Source of the DNA: Pirellulales bacterium
GTDB lineage: Bacteria; Planctomycetota; Planctomycetia; Pirellulales; PALSA-1355
Direction of reading: 5' to 3'
Assembly (NCBI GenBank): GCA_022844125.1
Contig: JALHMI010000004.1
Coordinates: 1-64,000 of the forward strand
Length of the DNA: 64,000 nucleotides
The notes beneath the pieces were generated by a model that made no database searches, had not been told where the DNA came from, and saw nothing but the letters and a program-made list of their open reading frames with translations. Positions within the stretch are counted from its first letter, which is position 1. Every line of letters begins with the position of its first letter. This document shows positions 36,887-48,363 of the stretch, one piece after another. The position numbers and the translations under genes are program-made.

Positions 36887-38578
36887 GTGAAACGAATTCT
36901 ACTTGGCTTGCTGGCCGCGGCGCTCGTCGTCCTGCCGCAGGCGCGCACTTTTGCTCAGGACGCCGAGGGCGAGTCGAAGCCCGTCGCCGTGTTGGCCATC
37001 GCCAGTTACGACCGGCTGATGACCGACCTGGCGTTCATCGGCAATCTGACCGGCAATCCGGACCTCGACAAGAACATCGAGGGCATGATCCAACTTTTCA
37101 CGCAAGGGCAAGGGCTCGTCGGTCTTGACCGCACGCGGCCCCTGGGTGTGGCGCTCAACACCGATGGACTGTCCTTCCAGCCGCTCATCATTCTGCCCGT
37201 CACCGATTTGAAGCAACTGCTCGCAGCGCTCGAAGGTCTCGTCGGCGCTGCGCAGGACGCCGGCGATGGCATCTATGAGCTCGACGTGTTCAATCAGAAG
37301 ATCTACGTCAAAGAGAAGAACACCTGGGCCTACATGTCGACCGCGCCCGAACCGCTGGCGGTGCTCCCGGCCAATGGCGGCGACCTGTTCACCGGCCTCG
37401 AAAAGCAATACGACATCGCCGGTCGCTTGCACATTCAAAATGTGCCCGAAGTCTTCCGCACGATGATCATCGATCAGCTTCGCGTAGGCGTCGAAGCGGG
37501 CCTGCAGCGTCAGGAAGGCGAAAGCGAAGAATCCTACGAATCGCGCCGCAAGCTGGTCGATTCGCAAATCGACGGTCTGACCAGCGCGATCAACGACCTC
37601 GATACGCTCACGCTCGGCCTGTCGCTGAATCCCGAAGCCAAGACCGCCCAGCTTGAGCTGGCGTTCAAGGCTCTGCCCGAGACGGAAACCGCCCAGGCAC
37701 TCAGCCGCGCGAAGGCGACCAATTCGAATTTTGCCGGCTTCCTGCAACCGGAAGCGTCCGCCTCGCTGAGCCTTTCGTCGGAAATCGCCGCGAGCGACGC
37801 CGCTCAGTACGTCGCCGGGCTGGAAGCCATCCGCGACCAGATCCTCAAGCACATCGAGACCGAAGCTCGCCTGCCGAACGACGACGCGAAGAAGCTCGCC
37901 AAGGACATGGTCGACCAGGTCTTCGGCACCGTGAAGGCCACTTTTGAAAGCGGCAAGATCGACGCCGGCGCGACGCTGAACGTCAGCGACAAGTCGATGG
38001 CCCTGGTCGTGGGCGCCTACGCCGTCGAGACCAAGAGCCTGGAAGAAGCCCTGCGCAAGCTCGCCAAACTGGCCGAGAATGAGCCCAACTTCCCACCCAT
38101 CACGTTCAATGCCACCGAGCATGCCGGCGTGAAGTTCCACACCACGTCGATTCCGGTGCCCGCCGACCACACGATCCACAAGGTCGTGGGCGATAAGCTC
38201 GACGTGGCCGTCGGACTGGGCGAGAAGTCGGTCTACCTGGCCCTGGGCAACGACAGCCTCGAGCTGTGCAAGAAGCTGATTGACGCTTCGGCCTCTCAGA
38301 CGGGTCAGCAGCTTCCGCCGTTCCAGCTCAACGTCTCGCTCGCTCAGGTCTTCCAGTTCGCCAGCGCCCTCCAGAAAGAGGGTACTGAGAGCAACCTGAA
38401 AACCATGTCCGAGGATCTGGCCAAGACGCCGGGCAAAGACCACGTCCGCCTGGAGTACGTGCCCGAGGAGAACGGCGGCACGATTCGGCTGTCGGCCGAA
38501 GAGGGCGTCCTGCAACTGCTCGGTAATGTTCTGAAGGACGCGCAAGCGTCAGGAGCCATTCCGGGCTTCGGATCATAA
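36887..38578 (+). CDS. Exported hypothetical protein
   Basis: 563 residues from GTG 36887 (AGGAGACC upstream). It has a standard Sec signal peptide (KRILLGLLAAALVVLPQARTFAQ, cleavage near residue 24). The mature part is a repeating alpha/beta protein with many 'PLxVLP', 'GIYELDV' and 'KNTWAYMS' strands, regular Glu/Lys helices (EESYESRRKLVDSQIDGL) and no Cys pairs. I recognise no family, though similar 550-residue exported proteins are widespread in planctomycetes. It is followed by a strong intrinsic terminator, so it is a single-gene unit. Confidence 0.8.
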   Translation: MKRILLGLLAAALVVLPQARTFAQDAEGESKPVAVLAIASYDRLMTDLAFIGNLTGNPDLDKNIEGMIQLFTQGQGLVGLDRTRPLGVALNTDGLSFQPLIILPVTDLKQLLAALEGLVGAAQDAGDGIYELDVFNQKIYVKEKNTWAYMSTAPEPLAVLPANGGDLFTGLEKQYDIAGRLHIQNVPEVFRTMIIDQLRVGVEAGLQRQEGESEESYESRRKLVDSQIDGLTSAINDLDTLTLGLSLNPEAKTAQLELAFKALPETETAQALSRAKATNSNFAGFLQPEASASLSLSSEIAASDAAQYVAGLEAIRDQILKHIETEARLPNDDAKKLAKDMVDQVFGTVKATFESGKIDAGATLNVSDKSMALVVGAYAVETKSLEEALRKLAKLAENEPNFPPITFNATEHAGVKFHTTSIPVPADHTIHKVVGDKLDVAVGLGEKSVYLALGNDSLELCKKLIDASASQTGQQLPPFQLNVSLAQVFQFASALQKEGTESNLKTMSEDLAKTPGKDHVRLEYVPEENGGTIRLSAEEGVLQLLGNVLKDAQASGAIPGFGS

Positions 38579-38606: not shown

Positions 38607-38650
38607 AACCGGCACCGACTTCTCACGGGAGGTCGGTGCCGGTTCTTTTT
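38607..38650 (+). terminator. Intrinsic terminator of the exported-protein gene
   Basis: AACCGGCACCGAC (38607-38619) and GTCGGTGCCGGTT (38632-38644) form a 13-bp perfect stem around a short loop, followed by CTTTTT at 38645-38650. It sits 29 bp after the stop codon. Confidence 0.9.
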
Positions 38651-38801
38651 CGTCGTGAGGGATCACGCGGGTGGCGGCTGGCCGCCTTTGAGTCGCGCAA
38701 AGTCGCGAAATCCACTGCAATTACTGCGGATTTTCCTTGTTGATACCCCCCAACGGTCGAACTAACATGGACCCAACACGGACCGATCGAATTTGCGGGT
38801 T

Positions 38802-41800
38802 ATGAGGCGCTCGCGGACGGGATCGGCAGTTTCTTGCGATGCGGCTCGCAGCGCCGCCCAGCCTCTTCCTCCTCAGAGTCAGGCAATGCACCAGCGAAGC
38901 GCTTACCGCAATCGGCATCCACGAATTCGCAGTTTCGGAAACCAATATCAGCCGATATTTGAACCCCTGGAGGATCGACGGCTGCTGGCCTCTTGGACGC
39001 CGGTCGGTCCGGCGCCGATCCTGGGTGGGCAGACGGCAGGATTAGTGGATCAAGATGATCCTGTCGCGGGAGCCGTGCAGGTCGTTGCCCCGCATCCGAC
39101 AAACGCGAACATCCTGTACGTCGGCGCCGTTAATGGTGGAGTTTGGCGGACCGATAACGCGCAATCTTCGTCACCCAGTTGGACGCCCCTGACGGACCAC
39201 CTGCCTTCGTCGTCGATCGGCGACTTGCAATTCGATCCGACGGACACAACCAATAACACGCTTGTTGTCGGCTTCGGACGGTTCAGCAGTCTCGCCCGCG
39301 ACGGAGATGAGCTTCGCGGCCTCGCCCGCACGACGAATGGCGGCCAAACGTGGACGGAAATTACTGGTGGCGGACTATTGATCGACAAGAACGTCACCAG
39401 TGTTGCGGCACGTGGCGACGTGATCCTAGTTGCAGTGAACGGCGCTACTCCCTTCAGTTTGGAGAACCTCGGCATTTTTCGCAGTGTCAATGGCGGCTCC
39501 AGTTTTGCGCGCGTTTCCGGCGCGGCGGGAAGCGGGCTGCCACTCGGTCGATCGCTCGAAATGGTCTCCGATCCCATCGATCCTAGTGTGCTCTATGCCT
39601 CGGTCAGCGATGCTGGCGCCAACAACGGCATCTATAAGTCAACGAATACCGGCGCCTCTTGGACTCGCGTCAGCAGTCCTGAGATGAACAACCTGATCAT
39701 CGACTCCGGCGGTTCGAGGACAAGCAACGTTCAGATCTCGGTCGGAAGGAGTAACAATCTCTATGTGGGCATCGTGAACGGTGGGCAACTGGCCGCGGTC
39801 TACCGCTCGGGCAACGGTGGTACCGACTGGACGGCCATGGATGTGCCGCAGACCAATGAAGACGGTACTTCGGTCGGTCTCAATCCGATCAAGACCGGGC
39901 GTCCGAAACCTGATGGTCGACCGGCGGACGATCCCGGGGGACAGGGAGCGATCCATTTTTCGATCCTGGCGGATCCCACGAATCCTAATCTCGTTTACGT
40001 CGGAGGCGACCGGCAGCCGCGAGGGGCACTCGATCAGGGCAACTGGCCGAATTCCATCGGGGCCACGAATTTCACGGGCCGCTTGTTTCGCGGTGACGCC
40101 ACGCTTGCCGCGGGCAGCCAGTGGACCCCGCTTACTGACGATTTCGCAGATCCCGACGGCGCCGACGGCCCACTTCCCGGGACCGGCCCGCACGCGGATT
40201 CGCGCGACATGGCCTTTGATGTTTTGGGCAACTTGATCGAGGGCGATGATGGCGGAGTGTACCGTCGCATTTCGCCGACTTCTGCGACCGGCGTTTGGCA
40301 GTCCCTGAACGGCAGCCTGCAGATCACGGAATTCGTTTCGGTCGCCTACAGCGGGCTTACGAATACGGTCTTCGGCGGCGCCCAAGACGTGGGAACCTCG
40401 TACCAGACTTCGAGCGATAACAACGTCTGGGAGCAATTCGCACAAGCTGACGGCGGCGTGGTGGCGGTGGATGAGAGTCAGCCCGGCATTTCCATTCGCT
40501 ATGGAAGCAGCCAATTTTTCGGAAACTTTGGACGCGCGACTTTCAACGCTGCCGGCGATCTTGTGAACTTTACCCCTGCCGATTTGAATGGGCTGAGTGA
40601 CGCGCCGCAGTTTTATACGCCGTTCGAGCTCAATGCCCTGCAGCCTTCCCGACTGGTCATTGGCACCGAGAGCCGGCTCTACGAGTCGTTCGACCGGGCC
40701 GATAACGTTACCGACCTGGGAGCCTTCGGCACGGTGGACGCGATCGCCTATGGTGGAGCCAGCGCGGGCGTCCCGAATCCGGATGTGTTGTATGTCGGGA
40801 CGAATTTGGGGCTGTTTTTACGCACCAGCGTCGTCGGAGGTTTGCAACCTCTCAACAGCTATCCGGGACTGGCTCCGGTGGACATCGTCCTCGATCCGCT
40901 CGACTGGCGCCGCGCGATCGTCGTGGACTCGTTGGGAATCTTCCTGACGCCCGACGCTGGCGACACCTGGACGAACATCACTTTGAACCTCGAGGATGAT
41001 CGCTGGCGAACGGTCGAATACGTGTCCGCCGCGAGCGGTTCGACGGGGATCGTGGTCGGGGGAAACGCCGGCGTCTTTGTCCTTCGTTTCGGCGCGAACT
41101 TTTGGCAAGAAGCCGCGACCGGACTGCCCGGCGCTCCAGTAATTGACCTCCACTATCACAGCGGCGACGATGTGTTGCTGGCCGGCACGCTAGGCCGTGG
41201 CGCATGGATCATCGAAGGCGGCAGCGCGGTGCTGACTCCACCGGGTTTGGAAGTCAGCGACGTTCTCCTCGCCGAAGGGACTGGCGGGTCGACCGACTTT
41301 GTATTCATCATCTCGCAGCCGGTGAGCGCGCTACCGGTCACTGTGGTTTACAGCACTGCGGATGGTTCCGCAATTGCCGACAGTGACTACTTGCCGCAGA
41401 GCGGATCGCTCACCTTTCTGCCTGGTGAAACTACCAAGCAGATCACGATTCAGGTCATCGCGGACTTCTTTGTCGAACCAAATGAGCAATTCCTCGTCGT
41501 GCTGAGCGATGTCGAAAACGGAACCATCAGCAAATCAACAGGTATTGGCACGATTCTTAATGACGATGTCGATATTTCGATCAATGACGTCGTCGTCAAC
41601 GAAGGCAACGTGGGAACTCGTCAGGCCGTCTTCACGGTGAGCGTCGCGGGCTTGATAAATCGCCCTATCAGCTTTACTTATTCCACGATCAACAACACGG
41701 CGCAAGGTGCGTCTGATTACCTCCCAGTTGCAGGCGGCATCGCCTTGCCGGAAGGCGTGACGACTGCTCAGATCGTTGTGCCAATCATCGGTGACCGGAT

Positions 41801-43580
41801 CGACGAGGCTGACGAGACGTTCTTTGTGATGCTTACCTCAGCGCAAGGCGCACGCATCGCCGACGGCATCGGCCAGGCCACGATCATCGACGAGGATCCC
41901 CTGCCGTCGCTCTATGTGAGCGACGCCCAGGTCACGACCACCGAGGCCGGAACTTATCAGGTCACGTTCAGCGTGGCTTTGGATGTGGCCAGTGGCCGCC
42001 AGGTGAACGTCAACTACTCGACCGCAGACTTCTCGGCCATCGCCGGCGTCGACTACATCGCCAAGAGCGGCGTCCTCTCCTTTGCTCCCGGCGCGATCAA
42101 CCAGCTCGTCACCGTGGACGTCATGACCAGCGGCGTGCCGGGGGCGAACAAGCGATTCTCGCTCAACATGACAGGCGTTTCGAATGCCGAAATGGGCGAC
42201 TCGCGCGGCGACTGCTACATCGTCTATGCCGACGAGCCGCAGAACGAGTTCATCATCGACAACGGCGCTGCCGGCTACAGCCGCTCATTCACCGGCTGGA
42301 CCACCCTCACCAACACGCTCGCCTACCAGCAGGACTTCGACTACGCCAGCGCCGGCAATGGCAGCGCCTTTGCCAATTGGAACTTCGCGGCCATTCCCAA
42401 CGGCTCTTATCAAATCTTCACCCGCTGGAGCCACTTGGGCAATCGGGCCACCAATGCGCCGTTCACGGTCTACAGCGGACTGGGCGGCAATAGCGAACTC
42501 GGCACCACGCTCGTCAACCAGCAGCTCGCACCCGTGGGCGATTTTTCCAATGGCGTGGCCTGGCAGAGCATCGGCACGTTCGAAGTCACGTCGAACACGC
42601 TCCGCGTGCGGCTCGCCAACAACGCCAATGGCTACGTCGTGGGCGATGCGATTCGGATCGTCGGCGGCGGCATCGGTTTCCAATCCGGCGAGATCGACGT
42701 CGCCGGCTTCGGACGCTCGATCGCGACCGGCGATGTCAGCCCTGCCCCGGAGGACGCCACCGACTTCGGAGCTGTCCCCAGCCTGGGTGTGACCTTCGAG
42801 CGCACCTTCACGATTACCAACAACGGAAACGCGGATCTCGTGCTCACGGGCAATCCATTCGTCGCCATCGGCGGTCCGCACACGGCAGACTTCACCGTCA
42901 CCCAGATGCCCGCGCCGGTCATCGCCCCCGGCGGCAAGAGCGACTTCAAGATCGCCTTCCGGGCCACGGACGTGGGCTTCCGCTCGGCCACGGTTTCGAT
43001 CGCCAACACGGACGACAGCGAGCATCCGTTTGAGTTTGTCGTGCAGGGTTACCTGGCGCCAGCCGCCGCGGCGCTCGCGCACAATGGCACGCTGCCGCAG
43101 GACGTCAACGACGACGGCCGCGTGAACACCAGCGACGCCCTGATGATCATCAACCACCTGCTCACTGGGCCAGCCGCTGCACCGCTCGTCGCGGGCATAT
43201 CGGCCGAGCCGCTCACCGCGCCGTCGGTGTTTTACGACGTAGTGCCCGACGGGCGCGTGAACACCAGCGACCTGTTGAGCATCTTCAACCGGCTGCTGAC
43301 GCAATCCGCCGCGGCCCAGCCTTTGGCAGCGCAACCCTTGGTTGCCCAGCCGCTGGCGGGCAGCGTCGCCGAGGAGGCCTTGGTACTATTCGTTTTAGAC
43401 GAAGACTCTTCGGACGAACCGGTCGCCGTGGCACATTGGCCTTCAACTGTTGAGTCAACCATTGCCGCGAGGCCACACGCCACGGCGATGCTGCTCGTGA
43501 AAGAAGATGAATTAGCACTCGCGGGCGACGAGGAAATTGATCCGGCCGCGGAACTCGATTTCGCCTTCCTGGAAGACTGA
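38802..43580 (+). CDS. Giant exported dockerin protein with beta-propeller, Calx-beta and golvesin-like domains
   Basis: About 1592 residues from ATG 38802. FEPLEDRRLLA (near residue 55) is the N-terminal export/sorting motif of planctomycete surface proteins. Then a sialidase/VPS10-like BNR propeller with repeating asp-box units (TNGGQTWTEI, STNTGASWTRV; about nt 39000-41200). Three Calx-beta domains follow (nt 41240-42220), a golvesin-like domain (FIIDNGAAGYSRSFTGW), a choice-of-anchor-D domain (TITNNGNADLVL) and two dockerin-like segments (DVNDDGRVNTSDALMI). It ends in a 60-residue acidic tail. Likely cell-surface, binding or cleaving polymers. Confidence 0.85.
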   Translation: MRRSRTGSAVSCDAARSAAQPLPPQSQAMHQRSAYRNRHPRIRSFGNQYQPIFEPLEDRRLLASWTPVGPAPILGGQTAGLVDQDDPVAGAVQVVAPHPTNANILYVGAVNGGVWRTDNAQSSSPSWTPLTDHLPSSSIGDLQFDPTDTTNNTLVVGFGRFSSLARDGDELRGLARTTNGGQTWTEITGGGLLIDKNVTSVAARGDVILVAVNGATPFSLENLGIFRSVNGGSSFARVSGAAGSGLPLGRSLEMVSDPIDPSVLYASVSDAGANNGIYKSTNTGASWTRVSSPEMNNLIIDSGGSRTSNVQISVGRSNNLYVGIVNGGQLAAVYRSGNGGTDWTAMDVPQTNEDGTSVGLNPIKTGRPKPDGRPADDPGGQGAIHFSILADPTNPNLVYVGGDRQPRGALDQGNWPNSIGATNFTGRLFRGDATLAAGSQWTPLTDDFADPDGADGPLPGTGPHADSRDMAFDVLGNLIEGDDGGVYRRISPTSATGVWQSLNGSLQITEFVSVAYSGLTNTVFGGAQDVGTSYQTSSDNNVWEQFAQADGGVVAVDESQPGISIRYGSSQFFGNFGRATFNAAGDLVNFTPADLNGLSDAPQFYTPFELNALQPSRLVIGTESRLYESFDRADNVTDLGAFGTVDAIAYGGASAGVPNPDVLYVGTNLGLFLRTSVVGGLQPLNSYPGLAPVDIVLDPLDWRRAIVVDSLGIFLTPDAGDTWTNITLNLEDDRWRTVEYVSAASGSTGIVVGGNAGVFVLRFGANFWQEAATGLPGAPVIDLHYHSGDDVLLAGTLGRGAWIIEGGSAVLTPPGLEVSDVLLAEGTGGSTDFVFIISQPVSALPVTVVYSTADGSAIADSDYLPQSGSLTFLPGETTKQITIQVIADFFVEPNEQFLVVLSDVENGTISKSTGIGTILNDDVDISINDVVVNEGNVGTRQAVFTVSVAGLINRPISFTYSTINNTAQGASDYLPVAGGIALPEGVTTAQIVVPIIGDRIDEADETFFVMLTSAQGARIADGIGQATIIDEDPLPSLYVSDAQVTTTEAGTYQVTFSVALDVASGRQVNVNYSTADFSAIAGVDYIAKSGVLSFAPGAINQLVTVDVMTSGVPGANKRFSLNMTGVSNAEMGDSRGDCYIVYADEPQNEFIIDNGAAGYSRSFTGWTTLTNTLAYQQDFDYASAGNGSAFANWNFAAIPNGSYQIFTRWSHLGNRATNAPFTVYSGLGGNSELGTTLVNQQLAPVGDFSNGVAWQSIGTFEVTSNTLRVRLANNANGYVVGDAIRIVGGGIGFQSGEIDVAGFGRSIATGDVSPAPEDATDFGAVPSLGVTFERTFTITNNGNADLVLTGNPFVAIGGPHTADFTVTQMPAPVIAPGGKSDFKIAFRATDVGFRSATVSIANTDDSEHPFEFVVQGYLAPAAAALAHNGTLPQDVNDDGRVNTSDALMIINHLLTGPAAAPLVAGISAEPLTAPSVFYDVVPDGRVNTSDLLSIFNRLLTQSAAAQPLAAQPLVAQPLAGSVAEEALVLFVLDEDSSDEPVAVAHWPSTVESTIAARPHATAMLLVKEDELALAGDEEIDPAAELDFAFLED

Positions 43581-43693
43581 CAACGACAAATGCCGGCAAG
43601 TTGCTGCCCGCAGTGGGGGTAACTAGTATTGACCTTCGCGCCGGCGGCAGGCCTTTTGCACGAGGCCTAACATTAACGACAAGAGTTGCAACT

Positions 43694-46600
43694 ATGGAAC
43701 GCCTCGGTACCCAAACTCGCCGCCCTTCTAAAGATCGGCTTGGTCAACGCACTCGGGCCTGCCAGCTCGCTGCTGAAGCATTGGAGGACCGTCGGCTGCT
43801 GGCGGTCCTCACGACCGGTACGGGCGACGGCAGCTTGAACATTTCTGTCGATGGATACGGTTCATTCGGCAGCGCGATTGGTAGTCCAACCGCGGGAGAA
43901 GCGACTTACGACCCGATCGGTGCGGTCACGGCGGCCAGCACCACGTTTCAGTCTGGCGTTGCCTTGCGCTTTGGGAATGTTGGTTCTCGGCAGTTTCTGA
44001 CCTCTGGATTCATCTTTGGAGACGGTTCGCTGCCCGACGCCGCCACGACTGGCAATTCCGAATCCGTTACCAGTGCATTCACTATCGGTACGCTTTCGTT
44101 TGAGTTGACTCAATCGGTCAGTCAGGTATTTGGCGCCTTGGGCGTGCAGACCGGTTCGTTACTGACGCAGCGTTACGTGATGACGAATACTTCGGCATCG
44201 CCCACCGATTTTGAACTACTGCGCTACATCGACGGCGACCTCTATTTCGATGGTACTCTCGTCGACGGCGGCGGGCGTTTGCTCACGCAGGGGCGAGAGT
44301 TCCTGTTCGAAACTGACGCCGGCGGCACCGGAGCGACGGACACAACATTTTTCGGAATCGACGCTACTGGCGGCACCATTCCCACGGTCGGCCGGTTTGA
44401 ACTCGATTTCTTTCCGATTCTCGGCGGTGACATTGCCGACGGCCTCGACCTGTCGGATACCATCACCGGCGACTTCGATAACGATGGATTCATCGATGCG
44501 GGCCAGGAATACGATGTCACGCTCGCGCTGCGCAACGTCTTTTCGCTGGCGCCCGGCGCGACCGCTTCGTACACCACACGCACGGTTTTCGGCTCTGGTC
44601 AACCGGACGACCTGCCGGAAGATCCCGTGGTAACCATCGATGGTGACGCCTCAGCCCTCGAAGGCGACGCGGGCCTGACGCCCGTCATCTTCTCGGTGAG
44701 TCTCGATCGCGAGCACACCGCGCCCGTGGTCGTGGCTTACGCGGTCGAAGGCATCACCGCGACCGAAGGCGTCGATTTCCCAGCTCAAAGCGGCTTTGTC
44801 ACGTTCGCCCCGGGCGGACCATCGACGATGCCCGTCACGGTCTTGATCAACGGCGACTTCGATGCCGAGACTAACGAGACGTTCCGCCTTCGGCTCACCG
44901 ACGCCTCCGGCGGCGCGCTAGGAATCCCCTCCGCAGCGATTGGCACCATTTTGAACGACGACGTCGACCTGGTCATTAGCGATGTTTCGATCATCGAAGG
45001 CAACTCGGGGACCAAAGACGCCGTTTTCACGGTTTCAACTGCCGGTGCTGTTTCGCGCGTTGTGACTGTCGGCTATACGACCACGAACGGCAGCGCAGTG
45101 GCCGGCAGCGATTACCTGGCCCGCGGCGGCGTGATTACGTTCATGCCGGGCATGGCTACGGCTTCGGTCGTGGTGCCCATTGTCGGCGATATCTTCAATG
45201 AGTTGGACGAGACATTCTTCGTCGTGCTGACTTCCGCGCAGGGTGGGAGAATTCTGGACAGCACAGCCACCGGCACGATCATCAACAACGACGCGATCCC
45301 GAACTTGTACGTCAACGATCCCGTCGTGACGACCACCGTTGCCGGCAACTACGAGGCCGTGTTCACCGTGGCTCTCGACGCTCCCAGCGGACGACCGGTG
45401 CAGGTCGCCTACTTCACGGCCAATGGCGGCGCCATCGACGGCGTCGACTACCTCGGCGCCAACGGCACGCTCACCTTCAATCCCGGCGTCACCACCCTCC
45501 AAGTTGCCGTCCCGGTCTCGACCACGGGCTCGTTCTTCCCCAACAAGAAGTTCTATCTCAACCTGCTCGCTCCGACGAACTCGCAGCTCGTCGATGGCCA
45601 GGGCGCCGCCACAATCGTCTACGACCACGACACCGACGGTGAGTACATCATCGACGACGGCGGAGCAGGCTACTCAAAGTCCGCGGGTTGGACGAACCTC
45701 ACCAACACGCTCGCCTATCAGCTCGATTACGACACCGCACCTGCCGGCAACGGCAGCGCTATGGCCACATGGAACTTCGTGGGCATTCCGAACGGCTCCT
45801 ACCAGGTTTTCGCCCGCTGGAGCCATTTTGGCAACCGCGCCACGAACGCGCCATACACCATGCTCGACAATGGCGTGCCGATTGGCACGGTGCTCGTCAA
45901 TCAGCAGCTTGCTCCCAGCGGCGAATACTCCGACGGCGTCTACTGGCAAAGCCTGGGCATCTTTAGCACCACCACCAACAACTTTGGCGTGCGGCTCTCG
46001 AACGCCGCGAATGGTTACGTCGTGGCCGATGCGATTCGGATTGTCGCCGGCGGCATCGCCCCGCAGAACGCCGAGATGGACATCGCGGCCAACGACATCT
46101 CGATCATCACCGGCGATGCCACGCCCGAACTGGCCGACGGCACGCACTTCGGCACGGTGCCCGTGCTGGCCGATTCGAACGTGCAGAAGTTCACGATCAC
46201 GAACAACGGTAACGCCGATCTGCACCTTTCGGGCATTCCCCGCGTCACGATCAGCGGCGCTCATGCCGGCGACTTTCACGTCATCACGCAGCCGGCTTCG
46301 CTCGTCGCGCCGGGCAAGAAGACCGCGTTCGAAGTGCAGTTCCATCCGCTGGCCGCGGGCCTTCGCACGGCAACGATCTCGATCGCCAACAACGACGACA
46401 GCGAACATCCCTATACGTTCACCATCCGGGGCAACGGTTACGTCGAGGCCTTGCCGCTGGCTCACAACGCGGCCTTCCCCCAGGACGTCAACGACGATGG
46501 CCGCGTGAACACGAGCGATGCCCTCACGGTCATCAACGCCTTGCTGACCAAGCCGTCCGAGCCCTCGGCCGAGCCGCTGGTCGCCGGGGCCCTCGCCGCT

Positions 46601-46930
46601 CCGCTGGCCACCACCGTCAGTACATATATCGATGTCAACGGCGATGGCCGCTTGAACACCAGCGACCTTTTGATGGTCTTCAACTACCTGCTCGCGGGCG
46701 CGGCCCCGCAGGCCACGCCGCAGGCCGCCGCGGTCGATGAAGCGATCGTGTTGTTCGACGAAGCCGAGGACGAGGCCGAGTCGGTCGCCACGCAGTTCGA
46801 GCCGCCGGTGCGAGTCGTGGTTCCGCAGAAGCCGCTCGAAAAGGCCCCGGCGCTATTGCTGACGGCCGAGGAACTCGAATCGCTGGTTTCGGACGAGAGC
46901 GACGAGGCCGAAGAACTGGCTGCCCTGTAA
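43694..46930 (+). CDS. Giant exported dockerin protein, paralogue of the preceding gene
   Basis: 1078 residues from ATG 43694. ALEDRRLLAVL (near residue 36) is the same sorting motif. The N-terminal beta-rich domain (SLNISVDGYGSFGSAIGSPT, LLTQRYVMTNTSASPTDFEL) differs from the propeller of the previous protein. The remainder is homologous to it domain by domain: three Calx-beta (about nt 44620-45620), golvesin-like (EYIIDDGGAGYSKSAGW), choice-of-anchor-D (TITNNGNADLHL), dockerin-like (DVNDDGRVNTSDALTV) and an acidic tail. The pair arose by tandem duplication with N-terminal swapping. Confidence 0.85.
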   Translation: MERLGTQTRRPSKDRLGQRTRACQLAAEALEDRRLLAVLTTGTGDGSLNISVDGYGSFGSAIGSPTAGEATYDPIGAVTAASTTFQSGVALRFGNVGSRQFLTSGFIFGDGSLPDAATTGNSESVTSAFTIGTLSFELTQSVSQVFGALGVQTGSLLTQRYVMTNTSASPTDFELLRYIDGDLYFDGTLVDGGGRLLTQGREFLFETDAGGTGATDTTFFGIDATGGTIPTVGRFELDFFPILGGDIADGLDLSDTITGDFDNDGFIDAGQEYDVTLALRNVFSLAPGATASYTTRTVFGSGQPDDLPEDPVVTIDGDASALEGDAGLTPVIFSVSLDREHTAPVVVAYAVEGITATEGVDFPAQSGFVTFAPGGPSTMPVTVLINGDFDAETNETFRLRLTDASGGALGIPSAAIGTILNDDVDLVISDVSIIEGNSGTKDAVFTVSTAGAVSRVVTVGYTTTNGSAVAGSDYLARGGVITFMPGMATASVVVPIVGDIFNELDETFFVVLTSAQGGRILDSTATGTIINNDAIPNLYVNDPVVTTTVAGNYEAVFTVALDAPSGRPVQVAYFTANGGAIDGVDYLGANGTLTFNPGVTTLQVAVPVSTTGSFFPNKKFYLNLLAPTNSQLVDGQGAATIVYDHDTDGEYIIDDGGAGYSKSAGWTNLTNTLAYQLDYDTAPAGNGSAMATWNFVGIPNGSYQVFARWSHFGNRATNAPYTMLDNGVPIGTVLVNQQLAPSGEYSDGVYWQSLGIFSTTTNNFGVRLSNAANGYVVADAIRIVAGGIAPQNAEMDIAANDISIITGDATPELADGTHFGTVPVLADSNVQKFTITNNGNADLHLSGIPRVTISGAHAGDFHVITQPASLVAPGKKTAFEVQFHPLAAGLRTATISIANNDDSEHPYTFTIRGNGYVEALPLAHNAAFPQDVNDDGRVNTSDALTVINALLTKPSEPSAEPLVAGALAAPLATTVSTYIDVNGDGRLNTSDLLMVFNYLLAGAAPQATPQAAAVDEAIVLFDEAEDEAESVATQFEPPVRVVVPQKPLEKAPALLLTAEELESLVSDESDEAEELAAL

Positions 46931-47073: not shown

Positions 47074-48363
47074 ATGTCCGTCGTTTCCCGATTTTCGCCG
47101 CTCCGTCACGAAATTGCCGGCATCGACGTCGCCCGGCTGGCCGAAGAGTTTGGCACGCCCACCTACGTTTACGACGCGGCCAAGATCGTCGAGCGGATCG
47201 AGGACCTGCGGCAGTTCGATACCGTCCGCTTCGCTCAGAAGGCCTGCTCGAACATCGCGATCCTCGACCTGGTGCGCCGCCACGGAGTGGTTGTTGATGC
47301 CGTCAGTGCGGGCGAAATCCAAAGGGCCATTGCCGCCGGTTACGCCACGGCTGCCGATGCCACAGGCGGCAGCCCGCCGCAAATCGTCTACACGGCCGAC
47401 ATCTTCGACGCCGAGGCCCTCGAACTGGTGAAGAAGTACGGCCTGCACGTCAACTGCGGCTCGCCGGACATGATCGATCAGCTTGGCCTGGTCGCACCGG
47501 GCCACGAGATCACGCTAAGGCTTAATCCCGGCTTTGGTCACGGCCACAGCCAGAAGACCAACACCGGCGGCGAGCAATCGAAGCACGGCATCTGGCACGC
47601 CCAGCTCGACGAGTGCCTGCAAGCCGCCGAGCGACGCGGACTGGCCGTCACGGGCCTACACATGCACATCGGCTCGGGCACCGACCTGGAGCACCTTTCG
47701 CAAGTGTGCGATGCCATGGAGCAAGCCGCGCTGCAGGTCGGTCGTCGGCTCACCACGATCAGCGCCGGCGGCGGTCTGCCGATTCCCTATCGCGAAGGCG
47801 ATCAGACCGTCGACATCGACGCCTACTTCAAACTGTGGGACGCGACCCGCAAGCGACTTGAAGCGGCTTTCGGTCATCCGGTGCACCTCGAGATCGAGCC
47901 CGGCCGGTATCTGGTGGCCGAGAGCGGCTTTCTGGTTGCCCAGATCCGCGCCATCAAACGGAGCGGCGCGAACACGTTCTACCTGCTCGACGCCGGCTTC
48001 AATAACCTCGCCCGACCGATCCTCTACGGCGCCTATCACCACATGTCGATCGTTCCCTCGGGCGAAGGCGGACCGATGCGTCCCTTGCACGAGGTCGTCG
48101 TCGGCGGGCCGCTTTGCGAGTCGGGCGACATCTTCACGCAAGAGGAGGGGGGCTTTGTCCGCTCCCGGATGCTGCCCGTGGCCGAGATTGGCGAATACCT
48201 GGTGATCGAGTGCGCCGGGGCCTACGGCTTCGTGATGAGCTCGAATTACAACAGCAAGCCCATGGCGGCCGAAGTGCTGGTGCAGGACGGCCAGGCCCAC
48301 CTGATCCGCCGCCGGCAGTCGTTCGAGGACCTGATCTCGGGCGAATCAATCCCCGGCCGCTGA
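47074..48363 (+). CDS. lysA: Diaminopimelate decarboxylase
   Basis: 429 residues of the fold-III PLP decarboxylase family, converting meso-diaminopimelate to lysine. PLP lysine K56 lies in VRFAQKACSN (family normally YAxKAN). Phosphate- and substrate-binding features follow: GLHMHIGSGTDLEHL, TISAGGGLPIPY, HLEIEPGRYLVAESG and GGPLCESGD with the conserved Cys of the partner-subunit site, then VIECAGAYGFVMSSNYNSKP. Arrangement and length match LysA. The lysine pocket reads AQK rather than AxK with Tyr, a mild deviation. Confidence 0.93.
   Translation: MSVVSRFSPLRHEIAGIDVARLAEEFGTPTYVYDAAKIVERIEDLRQFDTVRFAQKACSNIAILDLVRRHGVVVDAVSAGEIQRAIAAGYATAADATGGSPPQIVYTADIFDAEALELVKKYGLHVNCGSPDMIDQLGLVAPGHEITLRLNPGFGHGHSQKTNTGGEQSKHGIWHAQLDECLQAAERRGLAVTGLHMHIGSGTDLEHLSQVCDAMEQAALQVGRRLTTISAGGGLPIPYREGDQTVDIDAYFKLWDATRKRLEAAFGHPVHLEIEPGRYLVAESGFLVAQIRAIKRSGANTFYLLDAGFNNLARPILYGAYHHMSIVPSGEGGPMRPLHEVVVGGPLCESGDIFTQEEGGFVRSRMLPVAEIGEYLVIECAGAYGFVMSSNYNSKPMAAEVLVQDGQAHLIRRRQSFEDLISGESIPGR

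Follow-up and report, generated by a model that had tools for sequence, protein, structure and literature searches.

The window, a stretch of 64,000 nucleotides from a Pirellulales bacterium, carries two tandem giant open reading frames, A and B, between a gene for a conserved 563-aa protein and a lysA-like gene. Their N-terminal heads are unrelated to each other and are followed by a common C-terminal chassis; the initial annotation had described this arrangement, and all chassis domains were detected in both frames. For comparison, four genomes of the family from three genera were sampled: the window's own genome (G000), G001, G002 and G003, of which G001 and G003 belong to the same genus. 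The features of the locus are as follows.

36887..38578 (+), gene for the conserved 563-aa protein; left border of the giant locus, syntenic in 4/4 family genomes
38607..38644 (+), terminator-like hairpin 3' of the left border gene; 17-pair stem, then CTTTTTC (9 such sites in the region against 8.0 +/- 3.1 expected)
38740..38768 (+), weak promoter-like site (9/12) upstream of A (3 such sites found against 1.7 expected)
38802..43580 (+), giant A, open reading frame; first TTG at 38793, ATGs at 38802 and 38886
38970..41237 (+), BNR/Sortilin-like head of A; profile matches, and a near full-length match in G001
41241..42236 (+), three Calx-beta domains of A
42252..42662 (+), Golvesin_C of A
42690..43025 (+), choice-of-anchor D / HYDIN Ig domain of A
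43098..43298 (+), type I dockerin of A; loops DVNDDGRVNTSD and DVVPDGRVNTSD
43302..43577 (+), acidic tail of A; 92 aa with 19 D/E and 2 K/R
43694..46930 (+), giant B, open reading frame; ATG at 43694, first TTG at 43601
43805..44620 (+), head of B, no assigned family; common to G002 and G003 (60-63%)
44624..45658 (+), three Calx-beta domains of B
45656..46045 (+), Golvesin_C of B
46073..46438 (+), choice-of-anchor D / HYDIN Ig domain of B
46481..46693 (+), type I dockerin of B; loops DVNDDGRVNTSD and DVNGDGRLNTSD
46694..46927 (+), acidic tail of B; 78 aa with 19 D/E and 3 K/R
47074..48363 (+), lysA-like PLP decarboxylase gene; right border of the giant locus

The three Calx-beta stretches, Golvesin_C, HYDIN Ig / choice_anch_D and Dockerin_1 score above curated cut-offs in both A and B, and the two chassis align with 386/770 identities (50%). 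The BNR head that had been assigned to A falls below the Pfam cut-off in A itself (26.8 of 33 bits) but exceeds it in the G001 orthologue (39.4 bits). The B head had no Pfam or NCBIfam match at E 0.1, and because its AlphaFold model, built from three sequences, was poor (pLDDT 39.7), its earlier description as a beta domain is only weakly supported. An hhalign comparison of this head with ten planctomycete cohesins gave E 0.26. The acidic tail is present as described in A and B of the window, and the G002 tails are acidic too (D/E versus K/R, 22/1 and 20/6), but those of G001 and G003 are neutral and the tail was rejected as a conserved part of the chassis. The Planc_extracel signal was below cut-off in both A and B; the A and B proteins may nonetheless act outside the cell.

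The dockerins of A and B score 42.0 and 49.4 bits against the PF00404 type I dockerin profile, for which the gathering score is 22.9. The initial annotation had named loss of the calcium-binding residues in all relatives as evidence against it; D1, D5 and D12 are present in all 14 calcium loops of the seven chassis proteins. Position 3 falls within N/D/S in 13/14 loops (N or S seen), the exception being a V in loop 2 of A.

In all four family genomes the giants lie at one syntenic locus, from the 563-aa gene to lysA. The own genome carries BNR and B heads, G001 BNR only, G002 a metalloprotease and B, and G003 B and kelch, so that four heads (BNR, B, metalloprotease and kelch) occur at the locus over the family, the protease in G002 only. 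The 563-aa border protein, for which no Pfam or NCBIfam family was found, has matches in 183/196 genomes of the order. It adjoins lysA in 4/19 stretches from other families, and at these empty sites 140-229 bp separate the alignment ends. Elsewhere in the order, at E<=1e-15, the kelch head was found in 6/196 genomes and the protease head in 31/196.

Head and chassis ancestry conflict. In AU tests on whole chassis, which cover only seven chassis from four genomes, grouping by the B head (p 0.0058) and by the BNR head (p 0.0027) were both rejected. The whole-chassis trees thus contradict grouping by head, and we therefore conclude that heads and chassis were re-paired. Golvesin+D likewise rejected the B-head (p 0.0055) and BNR-head (p 0.0054) groupings; since clean grouping by genome was rejected there too (p 0.013), the exchange history is not simple. 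In the short single-domain alignments, the dockerin rejected B-head grouping (p 0.0046), did not reject BNR-head grouping (p 0.13) and accepted grouping by genome (p 0.70), Calx1 rejected grouping by genome (p 0.009), and neither head grouping was rejected by Calx1 alone or Calx2-3 alone. The BNR-headed A1 and the kelch-headed A3 both carry a second golvesin before the dockerin, and the A3 chassis groups with the A1 chassis (support 94).

Head-swapping by recombination, as the initial annotation had suggested, is upheld as an evolutionary event by one syntenic locus, four heads and contradicting trees, but a within-cell switch was not shown. A shufflon was rejected, as no inverted repeat of at least 24 nt lies at the head borders (the scan gave one 25-nt pair at 76%, inside the B chassis) and A and B nowhere share long, highly identical DNA. 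Recent gene conversion between A and B was also rejected, their chassis DNA being 66% identical with a best stretch of 83% over 63 nt.

Dockerin loops were then compared across unlinked proteins. In the family, 52/56 dockerin places entered the analysis; the other four, each overlapping a neighbour, were left out (G000 C17:147322 and C4:308505, G002 C9:127561, G003 C287:10740). A helix filter dropped 33/236 loops, of which 25 came from family genomes (9, 1, 2 and 13 in G000, G001, G002 and G003), leaving 68 loops in the family and 135 in 13 other genomes, which were chosen from the best-scoring dockerin places listed and 10 of which belong to one family. Dockerin positions 9-10 proved genome-specific: N[ST] at these positions was found in 12/15 own loops, in 0/53 loops of family relatives and in 0/135 loops of the 13 other genomes, and in 13/24 own loops when unfiltered, one dropped own loop also being N[ST]. 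Within the family (68 loops), genome-specificity peaked at position 10 (z=10.3), with z=9.2 at position 9; position 10 also stood out in the 13 other genomes (135 loops, z=9.3). The signal at positions 9 and 10 persists without the giant locus, unfiltered, without the giants' BLAST family, and when each BLAST family is represented by a single dockerin per genome. Between G001 and G003, of the same genus, positions 9 and 10 show no difference (z 1.3 and -0.2), though positions 11, 18 and 21 do.

Residues at positions 9-11, a set picked after the per-position results were seen, follow the genome, being identical in 41% of unrelated pairs from the same genome and in 18% of pairs of relatives from different genomes, against a background of 20%. 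At nine other variable positions (leaving out 3, 5, 7, 14, 17, 18, 21 and 22) the corresponding values are 38%, 52% and 36%, where related proteins are BLAST families, the largest of which lumps the giants with Calx-beta proteins bearing a cohesin-like domain. This dissociation of positions 9-11 (genome) from the others (ancestry) gave p=0.0005, the lowest value that 2000 shuffles allow, and the same-genome excess at the nine positions gave p=0.057. In the parts available of two studies, positions 10, 11, 17, 18 and 22 are reported as dockerin recognition positions and position 10 is a known, classical determinant of cohesin specificity (PMC3413522, PMC8063739). That published set showed identities of 44% (same genome, unrelated), 33% (related, other genomes) and 32% (background). 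Within it, the signal at position 22 is weak among family loops (z 1.9), and position 18 is almost invariant in the other genomes. Outside it, positions 7, 9 and 21 are genome-specific, as is 15 in the other genomes. A search of a partial literature collection turned up no description of planctomycete dockerins with a code specific to the genome.

The initial annotation had also noted that no cohesin was visible. This is correct for PF00963 at the sensitivity used, with no matches in the own genome; there were none in G001 or G003 either, and two in one 4761-aa frame of G002. Across the order, dockerins occur in 130/196 genomes versus PF00963 cohesins in 27/196. The conclusion that there is no receptor is probably wrong, because a cohesin-like domain is found in all four family genomes and the dockerin pattern is genome-specific. 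This domain, whose similarity to cohesins is weak and sub-threshold, lies beside an N-terminal dockerin in dockerin-bearing proteins. PF00963 matches two of its eight members, neither over the gathering score: the own second copy reaches 16.7 of 24.1 bits (E 0.0087) and another member E 0.00079, about 20 bits by inference, and the first five members had no Cohesin match at E 10 (0/5). A profile built from the domain recovered a single planctomycete PF00963 match (E=0.0047). By hhalign, a first comparison with ten planctomycete cohesins fell short of significance (E 0.09); E moved to 0.0024 and then to 0.0011, the best value (probability 20%), as more divergent members were added, and hence depends on the choice of members, alignment A6 having two members added relative to A5 and the G003 C29 member left out. 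Among solved structures there was no convincing match. Judged by sequence, the domain is an unproven candidate for the receptor of the dockerins.

Taken together, we consider it probable that A and B are cargo proteins with variable heads, belonging to a docking system that is not a cellulosome and uses a code specific to each genome. The C-terminal chassis of Calx-beta, golvesin and Ig domains would act as a spacer ending in a calcium-loop dockerin, the dockerin may bind a partner common to many proteins of the cell, and the N-terminal head would vary and serve as effector or bind ligands. Over evolutionary time, the stretch from the 563-aa gene to lysA may have been a site of head exchange, where heads would have joined resident chassis copies while chassis copies exchanged sequence with tandem neighbours. 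The residues at positions 9-11 may reflect recognition by a genome-specific partner, and we infer that this partner is a cohesin-like domain. A broader proposal, in which planctomycetes of the order possess a hitherto unrecognised docking system, with divergent cohesins on dockerin-tagged Calx-beta giants that receive many dockerin cargoes, a 9-11 code for each genome and a fixed locus supplying exchangeable-head cargo, is possible but put forward tentatively.

Several alternatives were weighed. The dockerin partner may not be a cohesin at all but some other factor, for instance one that acts in secretion or sorting, or a further domain in the same protein. The absence of PF00963 from 3/4 family genomes, the order-wide disproportion of dockerins and cohesins, and the many dockerins near a C-terminus, some ahead of a PEP-CTERM-like segment, all fit this idea, yet it is rather unlikely given that the most genome-specific position, 10, is a classical site of cohesin recognition and that each family genome has a domain with weak cohesin similarity. 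We also find it unlikely that the dockerin signature arose with no partner, by duplication or gene conversion of dockerin modules within genomes, although duplication of dockerins has been suggested in kelp planctomycetes (PMC5264255), dockerins from tandem neighbours cluster by genome, and genome-specificity extends to positions 7, 9 and 21, beyond the recognition set. Such copying predicts that all variable positions are genome-like, whereas the nine others are most alike between relatives across genomes, and the signal holds with a single dockerin per genome and BLAST family.

Replacement of whole giants, rather than heads, by horizontal transfer would account for the empty sites in four other-family stretches and for heads found elsewhere in the order. 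A possible relative of a whole donor exists in G018, of another family, where a protein combines a kelch head with golvesin and anchor-D repeats that share 31-42% identity with those of A; however, that protein has no Calx-beta or dockerin match, and the protease relatives L238 and L239 and the second G003 kelch copy L234 have no Calx-golvesin-D chassis by BLAST. In a scan of genome contigs the chassis match extends into the dockerin region only in three family records, the farthest non-family matches covering residues 1-604 and 3-621 of 779 (36% and 26%, best segment). Together with the grouping of the A3 and A1 chassis, these results make whole-giant transfer improbable. Calx-beta and golvesin are ordinary spacer modules, and the dockerins, with their calcium ligands kept, could be calcium-stabilised spacers only, on giants of unrelated origin that acquired their common C-terminus by ancient fusions. 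We regard this as quite improbable, because it leaves unexplained both the genome-specific residues at 9-11 and the double-golvesin chassis common to the kelch-headed A3 and the BNR-headed A1.

In an order where dockerins occur in many more genomes than PF00963 cohesins do, a code tied to the genome and not to the protein speaks for dockerins that are in use. Such a code also predicts the dockerins that would bind inside a given cell, and it leads to a candidate for their receptor. The head-exchange locus provides a natural set of differing cargoes that share one chassis.

Phase-variable shufflons also set a variable end on a constant part; A and B differ from them in their head borders, which lack inverted repeats, and in having no long high DNA identity. 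The clostridial cellulosome resembles the present system in its two-loop type I dockerin and in the residues at positions 10/11 common within a genome. The own S/T at 10 with N at 9 resembles the S(T/S) of C. thermocellum at 10-11, and the N at 9 resembles the conserved Asn 9 of A. cellulolyticus, the clostridial residues being those given in PMC3413522. The own genome, unlike the cellulosome, has no PF00963 scaffoldin, and the heads here are BNR-like, of no assigned family (B), metalloprotease or kelch. The Planctosome hypothesis for Nemodlikiaceae, as far as the available text of PMC6461901 goes, comprises a recognised cohesin, a dockerin adaptor and peptidase cargo, and contains neither head exchange nor a genome-specific pattern. 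It likewise concerns planctomycetes with non-cellulosomal dockerins and peptidase cargo, as in G002, but relies on recognised cohesins, whereas here only the sub-threshold cohesin-like domain is found. Shuffling in fibrillar adhesins, with the NR2-like domains of CshA/B, also places different binding heads on partner stalks (PMC10952558, part available); the giants differ in that they occupy a single fixed locus, end in a dockerin where the adhesins have a cell-surface anchor, and have probably exchanged chassis sequence with their tandem neighbours.

The two giants lie in the window (C4:1-64000 of the 6.4 Mb genome), for which the closest named records found are the planctomycete MAGs QQVE01000005 (LB_PLM_3), JACQFF010000068 and PLYM01000261 (palsa_1355). 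The locus is arranged as follows:

36887..38578, + strand: gene for a conserved 563-aa protein, left border
38802-43580: giant A
43694-46930: giant B
47074..48363, + strand: lysA, right border

Giants A and B are ORFs of 1595 and 1109 codons, separated by 20 bases when counted from the first TTG starts. Each carries three Calx-beta domains, Golvesin_C, a choice_anch_D/HYDIN Ig domain and a type I dockerin, all above curated cut-offs. This common C-terminal chassis is 50% identical between A and B across 770 columns while no alignment was found between their N-terminal heads, bearing out the initial description of shared C-terminal parts under different heads. A terminator-like hairpin was observed 3' of the gene upstream of A and a weak promoter-like site before A, and the scan found no terminator-like site in the A-B gap. 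Because such sites occur in the region at chance number, we can only infer that A and B form one operon.

A C-terminal query at E≤1e-20 matched 9 of the 39 genomes in the relatives set, comprising the four family genomes (the genome under study, G001, G002 and G003) as well as five others with weaker matches. Each family genome has its giants flanked by orthologues of the 563-aa gene and of lysA, and gene order is also conserved further out. The occupants differ: BNR and B heads in the window, a BNR head only in G001 (no B-head match anywhere in that genome), an NF038122 metalloprotease head (E 1.8e-60) and a B head in G002, and B and kelch heads in G003. In other families, the sequence following the 563-aa gene was inspected in 19 stretches: lysA directly adjoins that gene in 4 and was not found within the stretch in 15; a dockerin motif scan of these 15 found none. 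A database contig scan with the chassis returned 65 loci, with the dockerin region reached only by the three family records. Of the order's 196 genomes, 183 have a match to the 563-aa protein, which has no assigned family; most have one match and about 38 have two or three.

The B head was found at E≤1e-6 in 5 of the 196 order genomes (three family genomes, G171 with two proteins, and G066 with a fragment). At a cut-off of E≤1e-15, 6 of the 196 have the kelch head (with two copies in G003) and 31 the protease head. The bodies examined by BLAST under these heads are unlike the chassis except in G018, whose kelch head is joined to golvesin and anchor-D repeats (31-42% identity), and G061, where a kelch head is followed by weak Calx matches. 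A locus of another family (G171, C350) encodes two tandem giants with B-like heads (27% and 48%) and differing bodies; both have stretches matching the profile of the cohesin-like domain described below, joined in the first by a dockerin.

The ancestry of heads and chassis was compared by trees and AU tests on seven chassis, by domain and whole. For Calx1, grouping by genome was rejected (p-AU 0.009), an A-type/B-type split was accepted (0.69) and neither head grouping was rejected; Calx2-3 rejected no grouping. Golvesin plus anchor-D rejected the B-head (0.0055), BNR-head (0.0054) and pure genome (0.013) groupings. The dockerin tree rejected the B-head grouping (0.0046), did not reject the BNR-head grouping (0.13) and accepted the genome grouping (0.70); the dockerin share of the conflict is confounded by the genome-specific code described below, that of golvesin plus anchor-D is not. 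The whole chassis rejected the B-head (0.0058) and BNR-head (0.0027) groupings, with the genome grouping borderline (0.051). An extra golvesin copy is common to a BNR-headed giant and a kelch-headed giant from two genomes of one genus, and their chassis cluster with support of 94. Because of these AU results, the shared golvesin copy and the clustering, the sequences indicate that one chassis type bears different heads and that chassis parts have been swapped between tandem neighbours.

Dockerins (PF00404) match at 14 places in the genome under study and in 130 of the order's 196 genomes; huge planctomycete proteins are reported to be enriched in Dockerin_1 (PMC11573180). The initial annotation had seen no cohesin to receive the dockerins, and the genome indeed holds no PF00963 match. 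Across the order PF00963 matches in 27 of 196 genomes; among the relatives, G002 has two matches and G001 and G003 none. Some dockerins of the genome under study (L005 at C3:296224, L010, L011 and L014) run into a PEP-CTERM-like segment (VPEP...) in place of a tail; by eye, this set includes one peptidyl-prolyl isomerase-like and one trypsin-like protein. Another group of dockerin proteins related to one another, whose body looks hydrolase-like by eye, is tandem in this genome (C5:71772 and 74217) and in G002 (C31), with one found each in G003 and G001 (both C287). Several giants of the order (L234, L237, L049, L051, L239 and L240) show, by eye, a terminal D-x-hydrophobic-hydrophobic-x-x-L type stretch past the last domain, short, acidic and amphipathic, which may be a common C-terminal signal.

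Calcium-loop residues were compared with genome of origin by mutual information, against a null in which genome was shuffled among dockerins. The 127 dockerins gave 236 loops, of which 203 passed a helix filter: 68 from 40 family dockerins and 135 from 73 dockerins of 13 other genomes. Family z scores were 10.3 at position 10, 9.2 at 9, 7.1 at 18, 6.2 at 21, 5.0 at 17, 4.9 at 7, 4.3 at 11, 3.9 at 8, 3.2 at 13 and 1.9 at 22, and only 0.3-1.1 at the variable positions 4, 6, 15 and 19. The other genomes gave 9.3 at position 10, 6.3 at both 21 and 22, 5.5 at 15, 4.7 at 7, 4.5 at 11, 4.1 at 9, 3.8 at 5 and 2.4 at 17. In the family, positions 9 and 10 stayed beyond Bonferroni when the loops were left unfiltered, when each combination of genome and BLAST family contributed a single dockerin, and when the BLAST family of the giants was excluded. 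N[ST] occupies positions 9-10 in 12 of 15 loops of the genome under study, in 0 of 53 from family relatives and in 0 of 135 from other genomes; in G002, position 10 is A in all 14 of its loops. Several loops of the genome under study read N-[TGS]-S at 9-11, resembling an N-glycosylation sequon, possibly by coincidence.

Between loops of different dockerins, identity at positions 9-11 was 0.41 for unrelated proteins of the same genome, 0.18 for related proteins across genomes and 0.20 for background. The same classes gave 0.38, 0.52 and 0.36 at nine other positions (2, 4, 6, 8, 13, 15, 16, 19 and 20), and 0.44, 0.33 and 0.32 at 10, 11, 17, 18 and 22, which are described as putative recognition positions in clostridial systems (PMC3413522), with 10 and 11 as established specificity determinants (PMC8063739). 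The dissociation between 9-11 and the nine other positions reached p=0.0005, the lowest value that 2000 shuffles can give. Copying of dockerin modules within each genome would predict a same-genome excess at those nine positions too, but same-genome identity there is close to background (p=0.057 for the excess), making this explanation unlikely. Against a genome-specific code at positions 9-11 counts that the set was picked after the data were seen, and that G001 and G003, of the same genus, are alike at 9 and 10 (they differ at 11, 18 and 21).

A domain of about 155 aa follows N-terminal dockerins in the genome under study (C1:266071, with a second copy in the same protein), G002, G003 and G001 (two proteins). 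G003, G171 and G047 hold additional members. The first five members gave no match to Cohesin. In an eight-member alignment, two members weakly match PF00963 (the second copy, E 0.0087, and another member, E 0.00079) and one matches Bbp16 (E 0.082). Profile comparison against ten planctomycete PF00963 matches gave E 0.0011 with a probability of 20%, the aligned part spanning 35 columns in the first strands; a narrower alignment gave E 0.09 against planctomycete cohesins. Over the loci gathered here, the domain profile reaches a PF00963 match in G159 (E 0.0047), and against solved structures it found only unrelated proteins (E 1.8 and 0.84). This cohesin-like domain is a lead, by profile similarity, as a candidate receptor for the dockerins.

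A and B are most likely cargo. The head would point outward, the middle of the chassis would act as a spacer between head and dockerin, and the dockerin would plug into a putative partner common to many proteins of the cell. A planctosome has been proposed for another planctomycete family, one that has recognised cohesins (PMC6461901).
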